64,000 nucleotides of DNA. Source: Cellulophaga omnivescoria (GTDB lineage Bacteria; Bacteroidota; Bacteroidia; Flavobacteriales; Flavobacteriaceae). Shown piece by piece: positions 15,860-24,335 of the stretch (position 1 is its first letter; each line of letters opens with the position of its first letter). The stretch is from assembly GCF_001999725.1 (NCBI RefSeq), contig NZ_MDDP01000017.1:1-64000 (forward strand), in the 5' to 3' direction. The notes under the pieces are model-generated. The model had not been told where the DNA came from. It was given only the letters and a program-made list of their open reading frames with translations, and did no database searches. Made by a program: the position numbers and the translations under genes.

Positions 15860-16468
15860 CTACCGCTTAACAGCAATAGTTTTAAAGTAACTACGCAATT
15901 GCTGAATGTATTTGTAACGAAATAATTTTGCATTACCATTTATCATTAACACACGTACACCCATATAAGAAGACATTAAAAAGCTAGCAACAGCTTCACT
16001 ATCTACGTGGCGGTCTATATAACCGTCAGTTTTTCCTTTTTGTAAATTGGTAATCAAATTTACTTCCCACACCTTAAACATCTCTTTAAGGAGCTTTACA
16101 ATGGTTTCATTTTTGCCGCTAAACTCGGTCATAAAATTACTTAACACAAAGCCATTGTCTAATTGGTTGTGTTCTGCCGTTTCAAGAGCATTGTCAAAGC
16201 ACTTGTCTAAAATTACAGCAGGGTTTTCTAGTCCTTCAAAAGGAGCAATTAATTCGCTATATACTTTTGGGAAAATAATATTCTGTAAAATACTTATAAA
16301 AAATTCTTCCTTAGATTTAAAATGATAATAGAACGCCCCTTTTGATAAAGACAATACTTTTAGTATATCATCTACACTGGTATCATAATATCCATTTTTA
16401 TAAAATATTTCTAGACCAACAGACTGCATTCTTTGCATTGTGGCCATACGTTTTAAGTTCTTTTCCAT
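15860..16468 (-). CDS. TetR/AcrR family transcriptional regulator
   Basis: A 202-residue regulator. The DNA-binding N terminus spans residues 10-60: GLEIFYKNGYYDTSVDDILKVLSLSKGAFYYHFKSKEEFF, the standard TetR helix-turn-helix. The C-terminal ligand domain (residues 70-200) is helical and has no close named match I recognise. It is convergent with the GT9 gene and divergent from the DUF2064 gene across a 321-base gap. A 17-bp perfect palindrome 8 bases before its start codon points to self-repression. Whether it also controls the DUF2064/SusCD locus is open. Confidence 0.92.
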   Translation of the reverse strand: MEKNLKRMATMQRMQSVGLEIFYKNGYYDTSVDDILKVLSLSKGAFYYHFKSKEEFFISILQNIIFPKVYSELIAPFEGLENPAVILDKCFDNALETAEHNQLDNGFVLSNFMTEFSGKNETIVKLLKEMFKVWEVNLITNLQKGKTDGYIDRHVDSEAVASFLMSSYMGVRVLMINGNAKLFRYKYIQQLRSYFKTIAVKR

Positions 16469-16789
16469 TATAGCTTCTTTTTACAGTAAAAAGACTGGTT
16501 AGTTTGCTGCTTACTTTTTGTTTTGTAATCGCAACGTGTGTTTATAGGTGTAAATGGTATGGGGAACGACAAACTACACTATTTTTTAAATAAAAATATA
16601 GTTTACCCTAGTGTATAAACTACTTGGTTTGTTTTATTATTGTGCAAAAAAGGAAATAATTAACAAAAAATGTTTATTTAAAAGGAAATTTGTAGTAATT
16701 GTCTTATAATTAAAGATTGTTTATTATTTTCTGTATTATTTTTATAAAAGATTTTAAGGTTTTAGTTTTTTAACGACCAAGCAACCACA
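16469..16789. promoter_or_regulatory. Divergent control region between tetR and the DUF2064 gene
   Basis: These 321 bases hold no convincing gene. I see the palindrome at 16477-16493 next to tetR, an inverted repeat TAGTTTA/TAAACTA at 16599-16605 and 16616-16622 in the middle, and a very AT-rich stretch up to the DUF2064 start. No exact TAnnTTTG element was found for either gene. Confidence 0.4.
16477..16493. promoter_or_regulatory. Palindromic operator candidate for the TetR regulator
   Basis: CTTTTTACAGTAAAAAG is a perfect palindrome around a single central base. It sits 8 bases upstream of the tetR start codon, in the leader, which is a usual place for an autoregulatory site. Confidence 0.5.
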
Positions 16790-17488
16790 ATGAAACTACA
16801 CAATAACAAAACGGTTTTATTAGTTTTTTCTCTTTCCGCTAAATTAGAAGCAGAGAGGAAATCTGTATTCGGTGGTCATAAAAAAAGTGTTTCTAAGCAG
16901 TTTTTTAACCTCTTAATAAAAAATACGCTAAAGGTTGCAAATAATAGTGGTGTAGATGTTGTTTGGTTAGATGAAACACAACAAGAAGGATACACTTTTG
17001 CAGAGCGTTATACCAATGCTTACAAAAGCCTCTATGCTCAAGGTTACAACAATGTAATCTCTATAGGTAATGATACACCAAACCTTACTGCTAAACATAT
17101 ACAACAGGCCGTAGATGCCATGGCTACTAAAAAAGTAGTTTTTGGTCCGTCTAAAGATGGTGGTATTTACCTATTTGGTGTGCATAAAAGTATTTTTAAT
17201 GAAGATGCTTTTAAAAACCTACCGTGGTTAACATCAAAATTATCTAAAAAAATACACTACTTGGCAATTGCTAATAATGTGTCATTTACAATTTTAGAAA
17301 CATTACAAGATGTAGATACAACAAATGAAGCAATGCAATTTGCTTATTCAAACCCTAATTTGGTTTTAAGCAACTTTATAATTGCACATTTAAATTTTAA
17401 AGTAACACCCAAAGCTAATGCTGCTAGCGGTGTTATTACGTCTTTTTATTCAACTTCATTTTTACGTAGAGGTCCGCCTAATTTGTAA
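16790..17488 (+). CDS. DUF2064 family protein (GT-A-like fold)
   Basis: A 232-residue cytosolic protein of the DUF2064 family, related in fold to nucleotide-diphospho-sugar transferases. Recognisable parts are TVLLVFSLSAKLEAERKSV at the N terminus, AERYTNAYKSLYAQGYNNVISIGNDTPNLTAKHIQQAVDAM, where a D-x-P motif follows the strand, and KVVFGPSKDGGIYLFGVH, the family's G-P-x-x-D-G-G-x-Y-L. ETLQDVDTTNEAM near residue 170 matches the usual L-x-D-V-D-T block. It precedes susC by 97 bases on the same strand and may be co-transcribed. The reaction is unknown. Confidence 0.82.
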   Translation: MKLHNNKTVLLVFSLSAKLEAERKSVFGGHKKSVSKQFFNLLIKNTLKVANNSGVDVVWLDETQQEGYTFAERYTNAYKSLYAQGYNNVISIGNDTPNLTAKHIQQAVDAMATKKVVFGPSKDGGIYLFGVHKSIFNEDAFKNLPWLTSKLSKKIHYLAIANNVSFTILETLQDVDTTNEAMQFAYSNPNLVLSNFIIAHLNFKVTPKANAASGVITSFYSTSFLRRGPPNL

Positions 17489-17585
17489 ACTTTTTCATTC
17501 GGCATTTTTATAAGTAAGAACCAATTAAATTATAATTGGTGGTGACTGCTTATAAAATAATTTATCAACCTTATTACACTTAATT

Positions 17586-20500
17586 ATGAAAATAGCTATA
17601 ATGGCTGTAATGCAGCTGTTTGCCTTTACCGTATTTGCACAATCAAATACATATTCGTCTAAAATAGTAGACCAAGACAACCAACCTATACCTTTTGCTA
17701 CGGTAAAAGAAATAGGCAAAGAAAATTACACAACCACAACCATAGATGGCGACTTTACATTGCAAACTAGCTCTACTAGTTTTGTGATACAGGTTTCTTC
17801 TATTGGGTTTACAAGCAAAGAAATTACTATTACTAACGGTAATTTTCCGGCAAGTATTACACTAATGTCTTCTGATGAACAGTTAAACGAAATTGTAGTA
17901 ACTGCTTTGGGTATAGAAAGAGAAAAGCAATCCCTTGTTTCTGCTGTTACTAGGGTGTCATCAGATAAACTAACAGAAGTTACATTAACCAATGTGGTTA
18001 ATAGTTTAGCAGGCCAAGTTGCAGGTGTGCAAATTACTAATGGATCATCTGGTGTGGGTTCTTCATCTAGAATTGTTATACGTGGAGAAAATTCTTTAAG
18101 CGGAAGCAATCAGCCATTGTTTGTGGTAGATGGTGTGCCAATTAGTAATGAACAAATTACGAGCGACTTAGTAAACAACGGAGCTTTGCAAGAAGTAGAT
18201 TTTGGAAACGGTGGTTCTGAAATTTCTCCAGATGATATTGCATCAATCTCTATATTAAAAGGTGCTGGTTCTGCGGCACTTTATGGGGCAAGAGCGGCAA
18301 ACGGTGTTGTGGTTATAACTACAAAACGTGGTAAAAATAAGAAAGGATTTGGGGTTACTACCAGCAATTCACTTACGGTAGAAACCTTATTAACGTTGCC
18401 AGATTACCAAAATGTGTATGGTGGTGGGTCTAACGGCCAATACTCTTTCCAGAACGGTAAAGGTGCTGGTATAAATGATGGTGGTTTAAGTAGCTACGGC
18501 CCAAGATTGGATCAGGGCTTATTGGTAAATCAGTTTGATAGTCCTTCTGTAGACATTAACGGGAACCCTGTGCGTGCTGGTGATGTTATTTCGCGTACAA
18601 ATTCAGATGGTAGTTTTACACCTATAACTGCTACTCCTTGGGTATCTAACCCTAATAATGTGCGTAATTTTTTTGAAACGGGTATTACCAAACAAAACAA
18701 CATCGCCATTAACTCTTCTGGTGAAAACGGAAGCAGTAGATTGTCTTATAGTAATTTAAGAAACGAGGGCATTGTACCAAATACCGATTTAGATCGTGAT
18801 GGTATTTCGCTTAGTTTACATCAAAAATTAACAGAACAATTAAATGTAAACGCTTTTGTTAATTATATAAATACACGTAGTGGTAACAGGCCAAACCTTG
18901 GTTACGGTTATGAGAATCCTTTGTATGGTTTTAACTGGACAGGCAGGCAAGCAGATGTTTCTGCTTTAAAAAATTACTGGCAAGCAGGTCAGGAGGGAGT
19001 GCAGCATTATGATATTAATTACTTATGGCTTACAAACCCATATTTAACGGTTAATGAAAACACCAATAGTTTTAATAAAAATAGAGTTTTAGGTAATGTT
19101 TCTGCAGTTTATGATATTACAGATAAACTAAATGTTGCAGTACGCGCAGGCCTAGATACGTATGCAGACAAGCGCGAGTTTAGAAGAGCGGTGAGTACAA
19201 ATGCAAATCCGCAAGGTTCTTTTAGAGAAGATAATATAAGTTTTAGAGAGTTAAATACAGATATTTTGGTGTCTTATAAAGATGCTATAAACAACGATTT
19301 AAAATATACTGTTTCTGTAGGTGCAAACCGTTTTGATCAAGAAATAGAGTACAGCTACGCTGAAGCTTCACAACTAGCATTACCAGGGATTTACACCTTG
19401 GCAAATTCTAGAACTCCGCTTAAAGGAGATAGCAGATTGTTTGAAAAACGAATTAACAGTGTTTACGGTACCGGTAATTTATCTTATAAAGATGCTTTGT
19501 ATTTAGACCTTACCTATCGTAATGACTGGAGCAGTACATTGCCATCTAATAACAATTCGTTTGGGTATTATTCTGCAGGACTTAGTTTTGTGGCTAGTAG
19601 CTTTTTAAAATTACCAGAGCCAATATCTTACTTAAATTTTAGATTTAGTGCTGCAAGTGTTGGTAATGATACTAACCCGTACCAAAACACGCAAAACTTT
19701 TTATTTAATCAGAATTACGGATCTAATTTTAGGGTGACTAACGAGACGGTTTTAAAAAATGCAAATCTTAAACCAGAACGTCTTAATGCCTTTGAAGCAG
19801 GTATAGAGGCCTGGTTTTTTAATGGTAGATTGCAATTAGATGCTGCAGCGTACCAAAATACAAGTGTAGATCAAATTATATCTAGACCAATATCCGAATC
19901 TAGTGGTTTTGGTAGTTTTAACGTAAATGGTGGTAAAGTACAAACCACAGGTTTAGAGCTTTTACTTAGTGGTACCGTAATTAAAAATGCAGATTTTCAG
20001 TGGCAGAGTTCGGTAAACTTTTCTACGTTTAGAAGTAAGGTCAAGGAGTTGCCACAGGGTGTAGACCAGTTTGTAACTGGTACTGCCAATATATTTTCTG
20101 GCGGTGGCGGATCTAACTCTGTGTTTTATATAGCAAAAAAAGATGGCCGTGTTGGTGATATGTACGGTACAGGTTTTGTTGAGGTAGATGGGCAAATTGT
20201 ACACGACTCTAACGGGTTTCCTGTTCAAGATCCCAACTTACGTTTACTAGGAAATTATAACCCAGATTTTACAATGGGTTTTAATAACAAGTTTTCATAC
20301 AAAGGATTAGATTTTACTTTTTTATTTGATTGGCGTAAAGGTGGAACAATAGTTTCTAGAACAAAAGCACTAGGTAGTACGTCTGGCGTGTTAAAAGAAA
20401 CATTAGAAGGTAGAGAATCTGGTATTATTGGTGCTGGCGTTATAAATACAGGTACAGCAGATAACCCGCAATACGCACCAAATACAACAGTAGTGCCAGC

Positions 20501-20804
20501 CCAAGCTTACAACAATGCATTTTTTGATCGTGGTAATGAGGCTAGTGCGCTTTACAGTGCTTCTTATGTAAAATTAAGACAAGTAAGTGTATACTATAAT
20601 TTTCCTGCAAAAATTGTTGATGCCATAGGTTTTAATAAAATAAAAATAGGTTTGGTAGGTAGCAATTTATTGCTGTTTACAGAGAATCCGCATTTTGACC
20701 CAGAGTTAAATGCGTTGCAAGAGCAAAGCATTACTTATGGTGTAGAAGATTTTTCATACCCTTCTACCAGAAGCTTTGGAGTTAGTTTAAAAACCGAATT
20801 TTAA
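17586..20804 (+). CDS. SusC/RagA-family TonB-linked outer membrane transporter
   Basis: A 1072-residue TonB-dependent transporter that would import a ligand captured by the SusD partner. After a signal peptide (MKIAIMAVMQLFAFTVFAQ) comes a CarboxypepD_reg-like domain (about 22-100: VDQDNQPIPFATVKEIG), then the plug with VVTALGIEREKQSLVSAV, SLAGQVAGVQIT, IVIRGENSLSG, PLFVVDGVPI and ISILKGAGSAALYGARAANGVVVITTKRG (up to about residue 240). The rest is a barrel, ending SFGVSLKTEF with a C-terminal aromatic residue. The size is usual. SusD follows 13 bases later, then a nucleoside hydrolase and a kinase, pointing to a nucleoside-like ligand. Confidence 0.95.
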   Translation: MKIAIMAVMQLFAFTVFAQSNTYSSKIVDQDNQPIPFATVKEIGKENYTTTTIDGDFTLQTSSTSFVIQVSSIGFTSKEITITNGNFPASITLMSSDEQLNEIVVTALGIEREKQSLVSAVTRVSSDKLTEVTLTNVVNSLAGQVAGVQITNGSSGVGSSSRIVIRGENSLSGSNQPLFVVDGVPISNEQITSDLVNNGALQEVDFGNGGSEISPDDIASISILKGAGSAALYGARAANGVVVITTKRGKNKKGFGVTTSNSLTVETLLTLPDYQNVYGGGSNGQYSFQNGKGAGINDGGLSSYGPRLDQGLLVNQFDSPSVDINGNPVRAGDVISRTNSDGSFTPITATPWVSNPNNVRNFFETGITKQNNIAINSSGENGSSRLSYSNLRNEGIVPNTDLDRDGISLSLHQKLTEQLNVNAFVNYINTRSGNRPNLGYGYENPLYGFNWTGRQADVSALKNYWQAGQEGVQHYDINYLWLTNPYLTVNENTNSFNKNRVLGNVSAVYDITDKLNVAVRAGLDTYADKREFRRAVSTNANPQGSFREDNISFRELNTDILVSYKDAINNDLKYTVSVGANRFDQEIEYSYAEASQLALPGIYTLANSRTPLKGDSRLFEKRINSVYGTGNLSYKDALYLDLTYRNDWSSTLPSNNNSFGYYSAGLSFVASSFLKLPEPISYLNFRFSAASVGNDTNPYQNTQNFLFNQNYGSNFRVTNETVLKNANLKPERLNAFEAGIEAWFFNGRLQLDAAAYQNTSVDQIISRPISESSGFGSFNVNGGKVQTTGLELLLSGTVIKNADFQWQSSVNFSTFRSKVKELPQGVDQFVTGTANIFSGGGGSNSVFYIAKKDGRVGDMYGTGFVEVDGQIVHDSNGFPVQDPNLRLLGNYNPDFTMGFNNKFSYKGLDFTFLFDWRKGGTIVSRTKALGSTSGVLKETLEGRESGIIGAGVINTGTADNPQYAPNTTVVPAQAYNNAFFDRGNEASALYSASYVKLRQVSVYYNFPAKIVDAIGFNKIKIGLVGSNLLLFTENPHFDPELNALQEQSITYGVEDFSYPSTRSFGVSLKTEF

Positions 20805-20817
20805 GAAGTAAAAAAAG

Positions 20818-22266
20818 ATGAAAAAATATATAAAGCTATTTGTAGCAACCGCAGTAGCAAGCACTATTTTTACTGCTTGTACTAACGATTTTGAAGAAAA
20901 AAACACCAATCCTAATGCGCCAGAAAGTGTAGATCCGCAGTTTTTGTTAACCAATGTGGTTTCTGTATCATCAGACCTTAGCGCCTATCAACAAGGTTTT
21001 AGGCAAGCTAATTATTTGGCGCAATTTGCAGCAAGTATAGAGTTTGAGCGTATAGACCGTTATGAAATGGGATCTAATAGTGAGTACTGGAGTGCTATTT
21101 TTAGATTATTATCAGATATTAAATCGATGAAAGCCTCACCAGCGGCAAACGATGCTTACGTGGCTGTTGGTGATATTATGCAGAGTTACCTTTTTTCTCA
21201 GTTAACAGACCTTTGGGGTGATGTGCCTTACACAGAAGCAGTAGCAGCTTTAGATGGTACTTTTTCTCCAAAGTATGATACACAGGAAAGTATATATTCA
21301 GATGCCGAAACGGGAATATTGGCAGTGCTTAAAAAAGCAGTTAACACGCTTGAAAATACAAACAACGTAATTCAGGGTGATGTTATGTTTCAAGGAGATT
21401 TAGAGAAGTGGGTGCGTTTTGCAAACTCGCTTCAAGTACGTTACTTATTACGTATTAGTAAAAGAACAACAGATTTTACAGATTTACAAACTTTGGCAGA
21501 TTCTGGTAAGTTAATGCAGTCTAATGCAGACAATGCCGTTGTGCCTTATTTGGCATCTGCTCCTAACCAGTTTCCTATGTTTAACGCAGCTTTAGGGTTG
21601 TACCAAGAGCATACAATGACAAAAACAGTAGAAACTATATTAACTGCTTGGGATGATCCTCGTATTGCTGTACTTTACAAGCCTACAGCGGCAAGTAAAA
21701 ACTCTACCACACCAGAATACAAAGGATTGCAAAACGGACAATCTAGTAGCACCATAAATGCAAGTGGTATAGATTTAAACAACATATCTTTATTTGGCAG
21801 TATTTTTAGAGATGTTGCAGACGGTGTAGATGCGCAATTTATGCAGTATTCAGAAGTGCAATTTGCACTTGCCGAAGCGGCATCTAGAGGTTATATTACA
21901 GGAGATGCAAATACGTATTACCAAAATGCTGTTACAGCTAGTTTTGAGTATTACAATACACCAATCCCTGATGATTATTTTACTAGGCCAGCAATTTCTT
22001 TAGATGGCACTGCAAATGATTTAGAAAAAATATTAACTCAAAAGTGGTTAAGTTTAATTAATATTGGCCATGAAGCTTGGTTTAATGTACGTAGAACCGG
22101 GATTCCAAATTTAGAGGCTGGTCCCGATAATTTTAATAATGACAAATATCCCGTTCGGTATTTGTATCCAGAGTCAGAGCAAGCTACCAATAGCGCAAAT
22201 TATAAAGAAGCTGTTGATCGTATTGGTGGGGATAATATAAACAGCAAAGGCTGGTGGGAAAAATAG
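20818..22266 (+). CDS. SusD/RagB-like surface lipoprotein
   Basis: A 482-residue lipoprotein that would cap the SusC barrel and bind ligand. The lipobox is at the end of a short signal peptide (STIFTAC, cysteine near residue 21). The helical core fits the SusD-like family that pairs with large SusC proteins (PF12771-type): NTNPNAPESVDPQFLLTNV, NYLAQFAASIEFERIDRYEMGS, YVAVGDIMQSYLFSQLTDLWGDVPYTEAV, KWVRFANSLQVRYLLRIS and ILTQKWLSLINIGHEAWFNVRRTG with the conserved W-FNVRRTG end. One base separates its stop from the nucleoside hydrolase start. Ligand is inferred only from neighbours. Confidence 0.93.
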   Translation: MKKYIKLFVATAVASTIFTACTNDFEEKNTNPNAPESVDPQFLLTNVVSVSSDLSAYQQGFRQANYLAQFAASIEFERIDRYEMGSNSEYWSAIFRLLSDIKSMKASPAANDAYVAVGDIMQSYLFSQLTDLWGDVPYTEAVAALDGTFSPKYDTQESIYSDAETGILAVLKKAVNTLENTNNVIQGDVMFQGDLEKWVRFANSLQVRYLLRISKRTTDFTDLQTLADSGKLMQSNADNAVVPYLASAPNQFPMFNAALGLYQEHTMTKTVETILTAWDDPRIAVLYKPTAASKNSTTPEYKGLQNGQSSSTINASGIDLNNISLFGSIFRDVADGVDAQFMQYSEVQFALAEAASRGYITGDANTYYQNAVTASFEYYNTPIPDDYFTRPAISLDGTANDLEKILTQKWLSLINIGHEAWFNVRRTGIPNLEAGPDNFNNDKYPVRYLYPESEQATNSANYKEAVDRIGGDNINSKGWWEK

Positions 22267-22267
22267 A

Positions 22268-23344
22268 ATGATAATTATGAAACAAAAAATTAAACTAATT
22301 GGTATTTTGCTTGTGTTTATGGTGTTTGCGGCTTGTAAAGAAGAGGCTAAGAACGTTACCGTAGAAGTAAAACAAGAGGCAAAAACAGAAGCTGCTGATG
22401 AAGCAAAGCCAAGCGGAATTGTAAACGGAGTAAAACAAGTTTGGATAGACGCAGATTTAGCTGTTGGAAAAAAGAATATAGAAAAACCTGGCTATTCTGA
22501 TGTAGATGATGGCTATGCGGTTTTGCAATTATTACAGGCCAAAAACGTAAAAATTAACGGTTTAAGTACTGTTTTTGGTAACAACAGCGTAGAAAATGCT
22601 TTTGCTATTGGCAACTACATAAGTAAGGAGTTTGCAGCACAAAAAATTAAAGTTTATAAAGGTGCTGGTGCTGCAATTAATTTAGACAGTGTGGTAACTA
22701 ATGATGCTGTAGAGGCAATGGCTGCAGCATTAAAAAAGCAGCCATTAACTATTTTGGCAATTGGCCCCGCCACTAATGTTGGTTTACTACTATTAAAATA
22801 TCCAGAGTTACAATCTCAAATAGTTGAGGTTGTTTTAGTAGCTGGTCGTAGAACCCCTTTGGACTATTTTAAAATAGGAAACAAAGGTGTGTTGGCTAAG
22901 GATTTAAATTTTGATTTAGACAACACAGCATTTAGAATATTATTAGAAAATAATGTCCCGTTGGTTTTTTGTCCTTATGAAATTTCTAGTAAGGTTTGGA
23001 TAAAACAAAACGACCTTGAAGCATTAAAATCTACAACACCTGCTATGAAATGGTTGGCAACCGCATCACAGCCTTGGATAGAGCAATGGAAAAATCAGGG
23101 AGCAGAAGGTTTTAATCCGTTTGATGTTTTGGCTAGCCATTATATCATTGCCCCAGAAGATATTATAACAGAACCTTTACAGGCCCGTTTGGAGATTAAT
23201 TTAGATGATACTGTAAAAGAGAATAAGAATAGGGTCTACAAATCTTATTTATTGTGCACAAAAGAAGGTGGTGCAGCAGTAACTTATTGTTACGATGTAG
23301 TGCCTAATTACCATCAGAAATTAATGGAAACATTTAAAAAATAG
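22268..23344 (+). CDS. Lipoprotein nucleoside hydrolase (IUNH family)
   Basis: A 358-residue exported enzyme likely to split a nucleoside into base and sugar. The signal peptide ends in VFMVFAAC, so it is a lipoprotein. The catalytic fold follows a 35-residue acidic linker: VWIDADLAVGKKNIEKPGYSDVDDGYAVLQLL carries the calcium/ribose aspartates, but with about ten extra residues inside the usual DTDPGxDDAxA signature. Later blocks are GLSTVFGNNSVENAFAIGNYI, LTILAIGPATNVGLLLLKYPEL, VVLVAGRR and EGFNPFDVLASHYI, which supplies the final aspartate. A second possible start is the ATG at 22277. It sits directly between susD and a kinase gene. Confidence 0.88.
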   Translation: MIIMKQKIKLIGILLVFMVFAACKEEAKNVTVEVKQEAKTEAADEAKPSGIVNGVKQVWIDADLAVGKKNIEKPGYSDVDDGYAVLQLLQAKNVKINGLSTVFGNNSVENAFAIGNYISKEFAAQKIKVYKGAGAAINLDSVVTNDAVEAMAAALKKQPLTILAIGPATNVGLLLLKYPELQSQIVEVVLVAGRRTPLDYFKIGNKGVLAKDLNFDLDNTAFRILLENNVPLVFCPYEISSKVWIKQNDLEALKSTTPAMKWLATASQPWIEQWKNQGAEGFNPFDVLASHYIIAPEDIITEPLQARLEINLDDTVKENKNRVYKSYLLCTKEGGAAVTYCYDVVPNYHQKLMETFKK

Positions 23345-23348
23345 TATC

Positions 23349-24335
23349 GTGATAAAATTAAACAACAATATAGAGGATTTAACCCTTTACTTAAAAAGTA
23401 AAGATTGGTTAACTAATAACGAGTCCATTGTTGCTGTAGAAAAGCCTGGAGATGGTAATATGAATTTTACGCTGCGTATTACTACAGAAACCAGATCTTT
23501 TATTATTAAACAAAGTAGAGAATATGTAGAAAAATATCCGCAGGTTGCCGCTCCAGAAGACCGGGTATTAATGGAGGCCAAATTTTATAAAATAATAGAA
23601 AAGGTTCCTAACTTAAAAGAAATGATGCCTACATTAATTGGCTTAGATAAAGCTAACAATGTTATGGTTATGAATGATCTTGGTAATGGGTCAGATTTTA
23701 CATATTTGTATCAATTAGGAAAACAATTTTTAGAAGAGGATTTGTATGCTGTTGTAGATTTTGCAGCTACATTGCATACCAGTATTACAGTCCACACACA
23801 AGAGGACAGAATTACCAATACTAAAATGCGAGCTCTTAACCATGAACATATTTTTAATTACCCATATGTATTAAATAATGGTATTAATTTAGATGATATT
23901 TTACCAGGGTTGCAAAAAGAAGCAGAACGTTTTAAGACAGATGAACCTTTAAAAAAAGCTGTAAAAGAACTTGGAGATTTGTATTTACAAGATGGTAATA
24001 CGTTGCTGCACGGAGATTATTTTCCTGGTAGTTGGTTGGCAACTGTACAAGGTTTAAAAGTTATAGATCCTGAGTTTTGTTTTTTTGGTAAGCCCGAATT
24101 TGAAATTGGCGTTTTACTAGCACATTTAAAAATGGCAAATCAGGCTAACACATTAATAGAAAAAGCTGTAGATAGATATAAGTCCTTAGCAGATTTAGAT
24201 ACGGTATTATGCTATAAATTTATGGGAATAGAAATACTGCGTAGAATTATTGGTTTAGCACAGTTACCATTAGAAATTAATTTAGAAAAAAGAGTGAAAT
24301 TACTTAATGAGGCACGCAAAATTTTAGTGAATTAA
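23349..24335 (+). CDS. Phosphotransferase family protein, methylthioribose-kinase-like
   Basis: A 328-residue kinase with the aminoglycoside/choline kinase fold. The closest pattern I recognise is S-methyl-5-thioribose kinase (MtnK): KPGDGNMNFTLRI near residue 32 (nucleotide loop), SFIIKQSREYVEKYP with the ATP-binding lysine, VMVMNDLG, NHEHIFNYPYVLNNG, then the catalytic block LLHGDYFPGSWL and metal-binding KVIDPEFCFFGKPEFEIGVLLAHL. MtnK enzymes read HGDLHTGS where this has HGDYFPGS. The start is a GTG, 4 bases after the hydrolase stop. Together they suggest phosphorylation of a sugar freed from a nucleoside, perhaps methylthioribose or ribose. Substrate not proven. Confidence 0.82.
   Translation: MIKLNNNIEDLTLYLKSKDWLTNNESIVAVEKPGDGNMNFTLRITTETRSFIIKQSREYVEKYPQVAAPEDRVLMEAKFYKIIEKVPNLKEMMPTLIGLDKANNVMVMNDLGNGSDFTYLYQLGKQFLEEDLYAVVDFAATLHTSITVHTQEDRITNTKMRALNHEHIFNYPYVLNNGINLDDILPGLQKEAERFKTDEPLKKAVKELGDLYLQDGNTLLHGDYFPGSWLATVQGLKVIDPEFCFFGKPEFEIGVLLAHLKMANQANTLIEKAVDRYKSLADLDTVLCYKFMGIEILRRIIGLAQLPLEINLEKRVKLLNEARKILVN

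Follow-up and report, generated by a model that had tools for sequence, protein, structure and literature searches.

A SusC/SusD locus with a methylthioribose-kinase-like kinase in Cellulophaga omnivescoria: a candidate salvage route for C5-modified ribosides in Bacteroidia

Five genes lie head to tail on the forward strand between positions 16790 and 24335 of the 64,000-nucleotide stretch of the Cellulophaga omnivescoria genome that we analyzed (contig NZ_MDDP01000017.1; hereafter the window). They are a DUF2064 gene, susC, susD, and the genes of a ribosidase of the nucleoside hydrolase family (NH) and of a kinase resembling methylthioribose kinase (KIN). In a set of 199 Flavobacteriaceae genomes with one genome for each genus, TIGR04282, a CofC-like nucleotidyltransferase of 'arsenosugar biosynthesis', was found exactly where either ArsS or KIN was present. 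We propose, with confidence evenly divided for and against, that the locus salvages a C5-modified riboside and feeds TIGR04282, replacing the supply by ArsM and ArsS. That the substituent of this riboside is arsenic is a more tentative step. We hold it possible rather than probable that the SusC/SusD locus scavenges algal arsenosugars or arsenonucleosides and returns 5-arsinoyl-ribose 1-phosphate to arsenosugar assembly, replacing ArsM/ArsS lineage by lineage in Bacteroidia.

TIGR04282 was over its cut-off in 158 of the Flavobacteriaceae genomes, ArsS in 147, and KIN was found in 22; the rule held in all 199. The 52 genomes without ArsS divided into 11 with both TIGR04282 and KIN and 41 with neither, and none had only one of the two (Fisher p=1.7e-11; p=1e-8 on the more complete genomes only). 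The prediction was fixed before a second sample of 65 further Bacteroidia genomes was read. Among its 51 ArsS-negative genomes, seven carried both TIGR04282 and KIN, two only TIGR04282, one only KIN, and 41 neither (p=2.4e-6). Arsenosugar ArsM was over its cut-off in none of the 11 Flavobacteriaceae genomes with KIN but without ArsS, and TIGR04283 exceeded its cut-off in nine of these 11 as opposed to none of 15 controls. In the window's genome, the best matches to ArsM (NF038099) and ArsS (TIGR04167) had E-values of 6e-8 and 3e-10, both below cut-off. Its contig 12 (G000:C12) carries rhodanese, TIGR04282 (208 bits), PNP, DUF547, and TIGR04283 (242 bits), so that both TIGR04282 and TIGR04283 of the arsenosugar biosynthesis pathway are present. 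Because KIN lies on contig C9 and TIGR04282 on contig C12, their co-occurrence is not mere linkage. KIN does not behave like an ordinary component of the arsenosugar biosynthesis cluster, and we rejected that reading: ArsS is underrepresented among KIN genomes, and both ArsM and ArsS are missing from the window's genome.

Physical links to arsenosugar genes were also found, which the preliminary description of the window, made from its letters, had not foreseen. A single operon in one genome (G063) joins ArsS, TIGR04169 (AhpD-like), the window's type of DUF2064 (DUF2064A), a TonB receptor, and a YnjBCD-like ABC importer with a radical SAM gene, rhodanese, TIGR04282, PNP, DUF547, and a GT gene. 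In Psychroflexus, the SusC/SusD, NH, and KIN genes directly precede rhodanese, a second type of DUF2064 (DUF2064B), and PNP, and in several Flavobacteriaceae KIN stands just before rhodanese, TIGR04282, PNP, and ArsM. KIN adjoins AsSugarArsM clusters in seven loci, with a neighboring AsSugarArsM at 566 bits (cut-off 400).

The kinase is indeed of the methylthioribose kinase (MTRK) type, as had been read from its motifs. The only sequence matches of KIN in the PDB were the MTR kinases 2pyw and 2olc, and its AlphaFold model (pLDDT 93.9) reached a Z score of 34.6 to 2pyw. Fold scores were 31.6-34.6 for MTRK structures, compared with at most 18.6 for the choline kinase LicA, at most 17.9 for APH-type chains, and at most 18.6 for N-acetylhexosamine kinases. 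A choline- or aminoglycoside-type kinase, the outcome that the preliminary description had named as fatal to its assignment, is ruled out by these scores, the closest structures being MTRK. The G-loop GXGNXN and the HGD, DPEF (DXE), and E..RR motifs were invariant in all 31 aligned KINs; the W-loop Trp of MTRK is missing, and an invariant Y-P loop is found instead. In MTR kinase, the HGD Asp polarises the ribose O1, the RR motif touches the sugar, and the W-loop forms a lid over the 5-methylthio group (PMC2194712). The retained motifs make the prediction of KIN as a 1-kinase for a ribose well supported, and the remodeled loop suggests that its substrate bears a 5-substituent other than methylthio. 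Against the MTRK equivalog model TIGR01767, KIN scored 124.8 bits, below the cut-off of 275. Moreover, mtnA was found in control genomes but in none of the 23 genomes searched, 22 of which carry KIN. We therefore excluded methionine salvage as the role of KIN; of the earlier assignment to nucleosides or methylthio-nucleosides, the SusC/SusD locus for a riboside stands, and a methylthio-nucleoside used in methionine salvage is not supported.

The N-terminus of NH, MIIMKQKIKLIGILLVFMVFAACKE, is a lipoprotein signal with a lipobox. We aligned the active sites of 33 SusCD-linked NHs to E. coli RihA. The equivalents of the Ca-site D242 and the ribose-binding N168 are kept in all 33, in agreement with membership in PF01156. 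The HD-motif His, the general acid in inosine-uridine-type enzymes, is replaced by Phe, and the E166 equivalent by Asp, again in every one of the 33. Glu 166 (C. fasciculata numbering) contacts the 5'-OH in that enzyme. In two other KIN-linked NH subfamilies an aromatic residue (W/F/Y) replaces the HD-motif His (18/18), as is also the case in purine-specific nucleoside hydrolases. These changes argue against a classic inosine-uridine hydrolase; the pocket would fit a 5'-modified substrate whose leaving group is a stacked purine or else something other than a base. Ordinary nucleosides, which had been among the expected substrates, are thus less favored, given an MTRK-type C1 kinase with a predicted pocket for a 5-substituent and the altered His and 5'-OH Glu of NH.

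A YnjBCD-like ABC importer lies near KIN in 16 KIN loci, mostly directly before NH and KIN. It consists of four genes, encoding a YnjB-type binding protein (NF008633, 359 bits, cut-off 203; 32% identity to YnjB), two permeases, and an ATPase. Where the importer is present, NH lacks a signal peptide in 14 of 14 cases and starts a few residues before the catalytic motif. Where it is absent, a simple rule recognized an N-terminal extension carrying a signal or lipobox in 17 of 19, and in one of the two misses (L060) the N-terminus resembles a signal peptide on visual inspection (Fisher p=1.5e-7). The importer and signal traits change at least four times on the NH tree, and together; a tree-based sign test, for which only two independent pairs on starred branches were available, was not significant, although all agreed. 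The site of cleavage thus appears to switch with the importer, being the cytosol where it is present and the periplasm where it is absent, as in the window. Such a pairing of importer with cytosolic ribosidase, and of exported ribosidase with no importer, would cleanly illustrate how a single reaction can move from one compartment to another. The earlier remark that the cluster has no permease holds for the operon in the window, and the importer in the same operon of its relatives explains what is missing there.

One locus (L128 5057-15976, genome G001) combines a window-like genomic setting with the ABC importer and a cytosolic NH but has lost KIN; the KIN of G001, of a second type, sits elsewhere beside rhodanese, DUF2064B, and PNP. 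The E. coli ynjABCDE genes (L141 3516-8775) combine the YnjBCD importer with a rhodanese and an AhpD-like protein, which recalls the G063 operon. We know of no substrate for E. coli YnjBCD, and 5-modified ribosides are a place to look for it.

Substrate, product, and direction of the pathway we infer from these genes as follows. In these marine bacteria, SusC/SusD would bring a C5-modified riboside across the outer membrane, and NH would cleave it, in the periplasm in the case of the window and in the cytosol of relatives that import the intact riboside through the YnjBCD-like ABC importer. The freed 5-modified ribose would be phosphorylated at C1 by KIN, and the sugar-1-phosphate would go to TIGR04282, encoded elsewhere beside rhodanese, PNP, DUF547, and TIGR04283. 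Salvage would thereby stand in for the de novo ArsM/ArsS supply of other Flavobacteriaceae. Two supply routes to TIGR04282, one by ArsM/ArsS and one by import, ribosidase, and KIN, would account for the either/or rule, the MTRK-type kinase, the changed NH pocket, and the missing ArsM/ArsS. The likeliest riboside would be an algal arsenosugar or a 5'-arsinoyl nucleoside. Algae contain abundant 5-dimethylarsinoyl-ribofuranosides (PMC10456119; PMC5387034) and turn most inorganic arsenic into arsenosugars (PMC5387034). ArsS transfers an adenosyl group to arsenic in vitro (PMC12159101, citing Cheng et al. 2021). Loss of adenine from the ArsS product would give 5-arsinoyl-ribose, whose 1-phosphate could be activated by TIGR04282.

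Several points weigh against this proposal. Two genomes (G241 and G318) carry TIGR04282 without ArsS or KIN, and one (G437) has KIN without TIGR04282. Outside Bacteroidia the rule fails, TIGR04282 being common without ArsS or KIN, and we rejected a phylum-wide rule for this reason. ArsS occurs in 11 of the 22 KIN genomes versus 136 of the 177 others, a depletion that agrees with replacement but could also reflect a different niche. The names of TIGR04282 and ArsS derive from gene context and in vitro work on ArsS, and another element or substituent may be the real one. The aromatic residue that replaces the NH His, also known from purine-specific enzymes, allows that an ordinary purine nucleoside may be the substrate. 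Finally, a search of the window's genome found no YnjB elsewhere in it, leaving no assigned inner-membrane route for the freed sugar.

There are three other explanations. The locus might be a marine variant of the Rus polysaccharide utilization locus (PUL) that scavenges plain nucleosides or ribose, NH freeing ribose and KIN making ribose-1-phosphate for carbon. NH is a PF01156 member, and an aromatic residue stands in for its catalytic His, as in purine-specific enzymes. The combination of SusC/SusD, nucleoside hydrolase, and kinase is likewise that of the Rus PUL BT2803-2809 (PMC12596196). We consider this explanation unlikely, though worth keeping in mind, because the kinase is of the MTRK type rather than a ribokinase, with a ribose-binding RR motif and a remodeled 5-substituent loop, all 33 SusCD-type NHs have an altered E166 equivalent, the residue expected to bind the 5'-OH, and the dependence of TIGR04282 on ArsS or KIN is left unexplained. 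Salvage of methylthioadenosine or 5'-deoxyadenosine, with KIN as a true MTR or 5-deoxyribose kinase, would agree with the nearest solved structures being MTR kinases (Z 32-35) and with the kept core motifs. It seems very improbable to us in view of the absence of the next enzyme, mtnA, from all 22 KIN genomes in contrast to the controls, the score of 125 bits where TIGR01767 demands 275, and the replaced methylthio-capping W-loop.

Alternatively, the 5-modified riboside could be unrelated to arsenic, with ArsS and KIN both feeding a TIGR04282 pathway that has another product. Neither the logical rule nor the gene neighborhoods by themselves show arsenic, and ArsS was found in 31 more of the Flavobacteriaceae genomes than arsenosugar ArsM (147 vs 116). 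On the other hand, the adenosyl-arsenical made by ArsS in vitro (cited in PMC12159101) and the neighboring AsSugarArsM, well over its cut-off, speak for arsenic, and we regard a non-arsenic pathway as rather improbable. Even if arsenic were wrong, the rule that TIGR04282 needs ArsS or KIN would still define a salvage route in Bacteroidia.

The order of SusC/SusD, lipoprotein NH, and kinase was confirmed by the coordinates and family searches (Table 1), and the conserved co-occurrence that the preliminary description had proposed to check was found, the gene set being kept from Cellulophaga to Algoriphagus, Marivirga, and Membranihabitans. Relatives of KIN were retrieved from 95 stretches of a species-genome collection, including also Maribacter, Kriegella, Psychroflexus, Salegentibacter, and Leeuwenhoekiella, with more distant relatives in Spirosoma, Runella, and metagenome-assembled genomes (MAGs) outside Bacteroidota. 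Across 99 distinct KIN loci, SusC at an identity of at least 55% was found near KIN in 33 and SusD in 32, and the window-type DUF2064 stood near SusC or another TonB receptor in 33. In 63 of the loci, a gene of the NH family or for an ADP-ribosyl-glycohydrolase lay at most two genes from KIN on the same strand. These counts show that the arrangement is not due to chance. As the content stays constant while the gene order varies between lineages, they speak for selection acting on the gene set and against synteny retained by descent. The KINs of SusCD loci together with those of the TonB-receptor versions form one fully supported group of 35.

Table 1. Features of the operon and its upstream region in the window.
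Feature	Position	Strand	Evidence
TetR-family regulator, candidate regulator	15860..16468	-	PF00440 1.8e-11; divergent from operon
Candidate operator AGACTGGTTAGTTT (weak candidate)	16492..16505	+	TetR/DUF2064 intergenic region
DUF2064A, CofC-like nucleotidyltransferase fold	16790..17488	+	PF09837 6e-19; TIGR04282 90 bits, below cut-off 134
SusC/RagA TonB-dependent outer-membrane transporter	17586..20804	+	TIGR04056 596 bits (cut-off 368)
SusD-like surface lipoprotein, SusD-like_2 PF12771	20818..22266	+	315 bits; PDB SusD homologues, best 3ejn 3e-43
NH-family ribosidase, exported lipoprotein	22268..23344	+	PF01156 (IU_nuc_hydro) 109 bits, 4e-31; lipobox
KIN, MTRK-like sugar 1-kinase, predicted cytosolic	23349..24335	+	TIGR01767 125 bits (cut-off 275); APH 33 bits

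The intergenic gaps from DUF2064 to KIN are 97, 13, 1, and 4 bases, and the adjacent TIGR04056 SusC and SusD-family lipoprotein constitute a SusC/SusD transport pair. Contrary to the earlier statement that no regulator accompanies the cluster, a divergent TetR gene lies directly upstream of the operon and stays beside it in the close relatives L047-L053 (Cellulophaga/Maribacter) and L128. A weak candidate for its operator lies between the two; AGACT-N4-AG(G/T)CT repeats resembling it occur at the aligned place in L050, L052, and L053, and its pattern matches twice in the window against 0.36 expected. No RNA element in the window, riboswitches included, exceeded the Rfam gathering scores.

How the DUF2064 gene contributes is a matter of guesswork. 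Its AlphaFold model (pLDDT 86.7) has a CofC-like nucleotidyltransferase fold, with 3cgx as the best PDB match, followed by guanylyltransferases. DUF2064B, beside rhodanese or PNP, has a KTRL motif in every one of the listed loci, whereas DUF2064A, which has SusC, another TonB receptor, or the importer as its neighbor, lacks this motif near its N-terminus in all of them. DUF2064A always accompanies the outer-membrane transporter. Our guess for DUF2064A is a binding or regulatory function. Its C-terminus carries a conserved (R/K)(G/A)(P/S)P after a variable, low-confidence stretch.

Other neighborhoods of KIN are worth recording. A second KIN group (L029-L042) lies upstream of rhodanese, TIGR04282, and PNP, together with an exported ADP-ribosyl-glycohydrolase (PF03747) and sometimes a GH32 enzyme or another exported NH. 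In MAGs of Gemmatimonadota and Latescibacterota (L109-L114), a mannose-6-phosphate-isomerase-like gene and an SDR come after KIN, which suggests that the kinase is put to another use there. A radical SAM family (cluster c23; for example L072 11008-11952 and L127 14286-15227) occurs in nine KIN loci and the G063 operon and exceeds the cut-off of no NCBIfam equivalog. In several loci of Algoriphagus and Marivirga, the gene after susD encodes a conserved protein of 133 residues (L072 17553-17951), which has no Pfam or NCBIfam match.

Our literature search found no paper joining arsenosugars and nucleoside hydrolases, and on arsenosugar degradation by Flavobacteria it returned only an algal-food review that mentions all of the subjects. 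To our knowledge, no bacterial genes dismantling or recycling arsenosugars have been established. If the proposed salvage of arsenosugars is true, a defined gene set with a predicted order of reactions would be at hand in culturable strains for testing. The predicted substrate of TIGR04282 would be a 5-modified ribose-1-phosphate, and KIN would have a function other than in methionine salvage.

The preliminary description was surprised to find an MTRK-like kinase in a SusC/SusD locus. Scavenging of ribose and nucleosides by SusC/SusD is itself known from the Rus PUL (PMC12596196, citing Glowacki et al. 2020), so that a SusC/SusD locus not devoted to glycans is surprising only in part. As far as we found, neither an MTRK-type kinase in such a locus, nor the compartment switch, nor KIN standing in for ArsS has been described. 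With the Rus PUL BT2803-2809 of Bacteroides thetaiotaomicron, the locus in the window shares the SusC/SusD pair, a step of nucleoside hydrolysis, and a sugar kinase directed at ribose compounds. It differs in that its kinase is of the MTRK type with no ribokinase gene in the locus, DUF2064A is added, the locus is linked to TIGR04282 genes, and relatives add the YnjBCD-like ABC importer. That importer shares the YnjB match with E. coli YnjBCD, but its permease is split into two genes, and the window's genome has no importer. KIN resembles MtnK (2OLC, 2PUN, and 2PYW) in fold (Z 32-35) and in the GXGNXN, HGD, DXE, and E..RR motifs; it differs in its identity of only 19-23%, its score below the TIGR01767 cut-off, the lack of the W-loop Trp, its ribosidase neighbor, and the absence of mtnA from the genome. 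With the arsenosugar cluster (NF038099, TIGR04167, TIGR04169, TIGR04282, and TIGR04283), the window's genome has TIGR04282 and TIGR04283 in common, and its relatives have cluster genes as neighbors; in place of ArsM and ArsS, it carries genes for uptake, a ribosidase, and a kinase.

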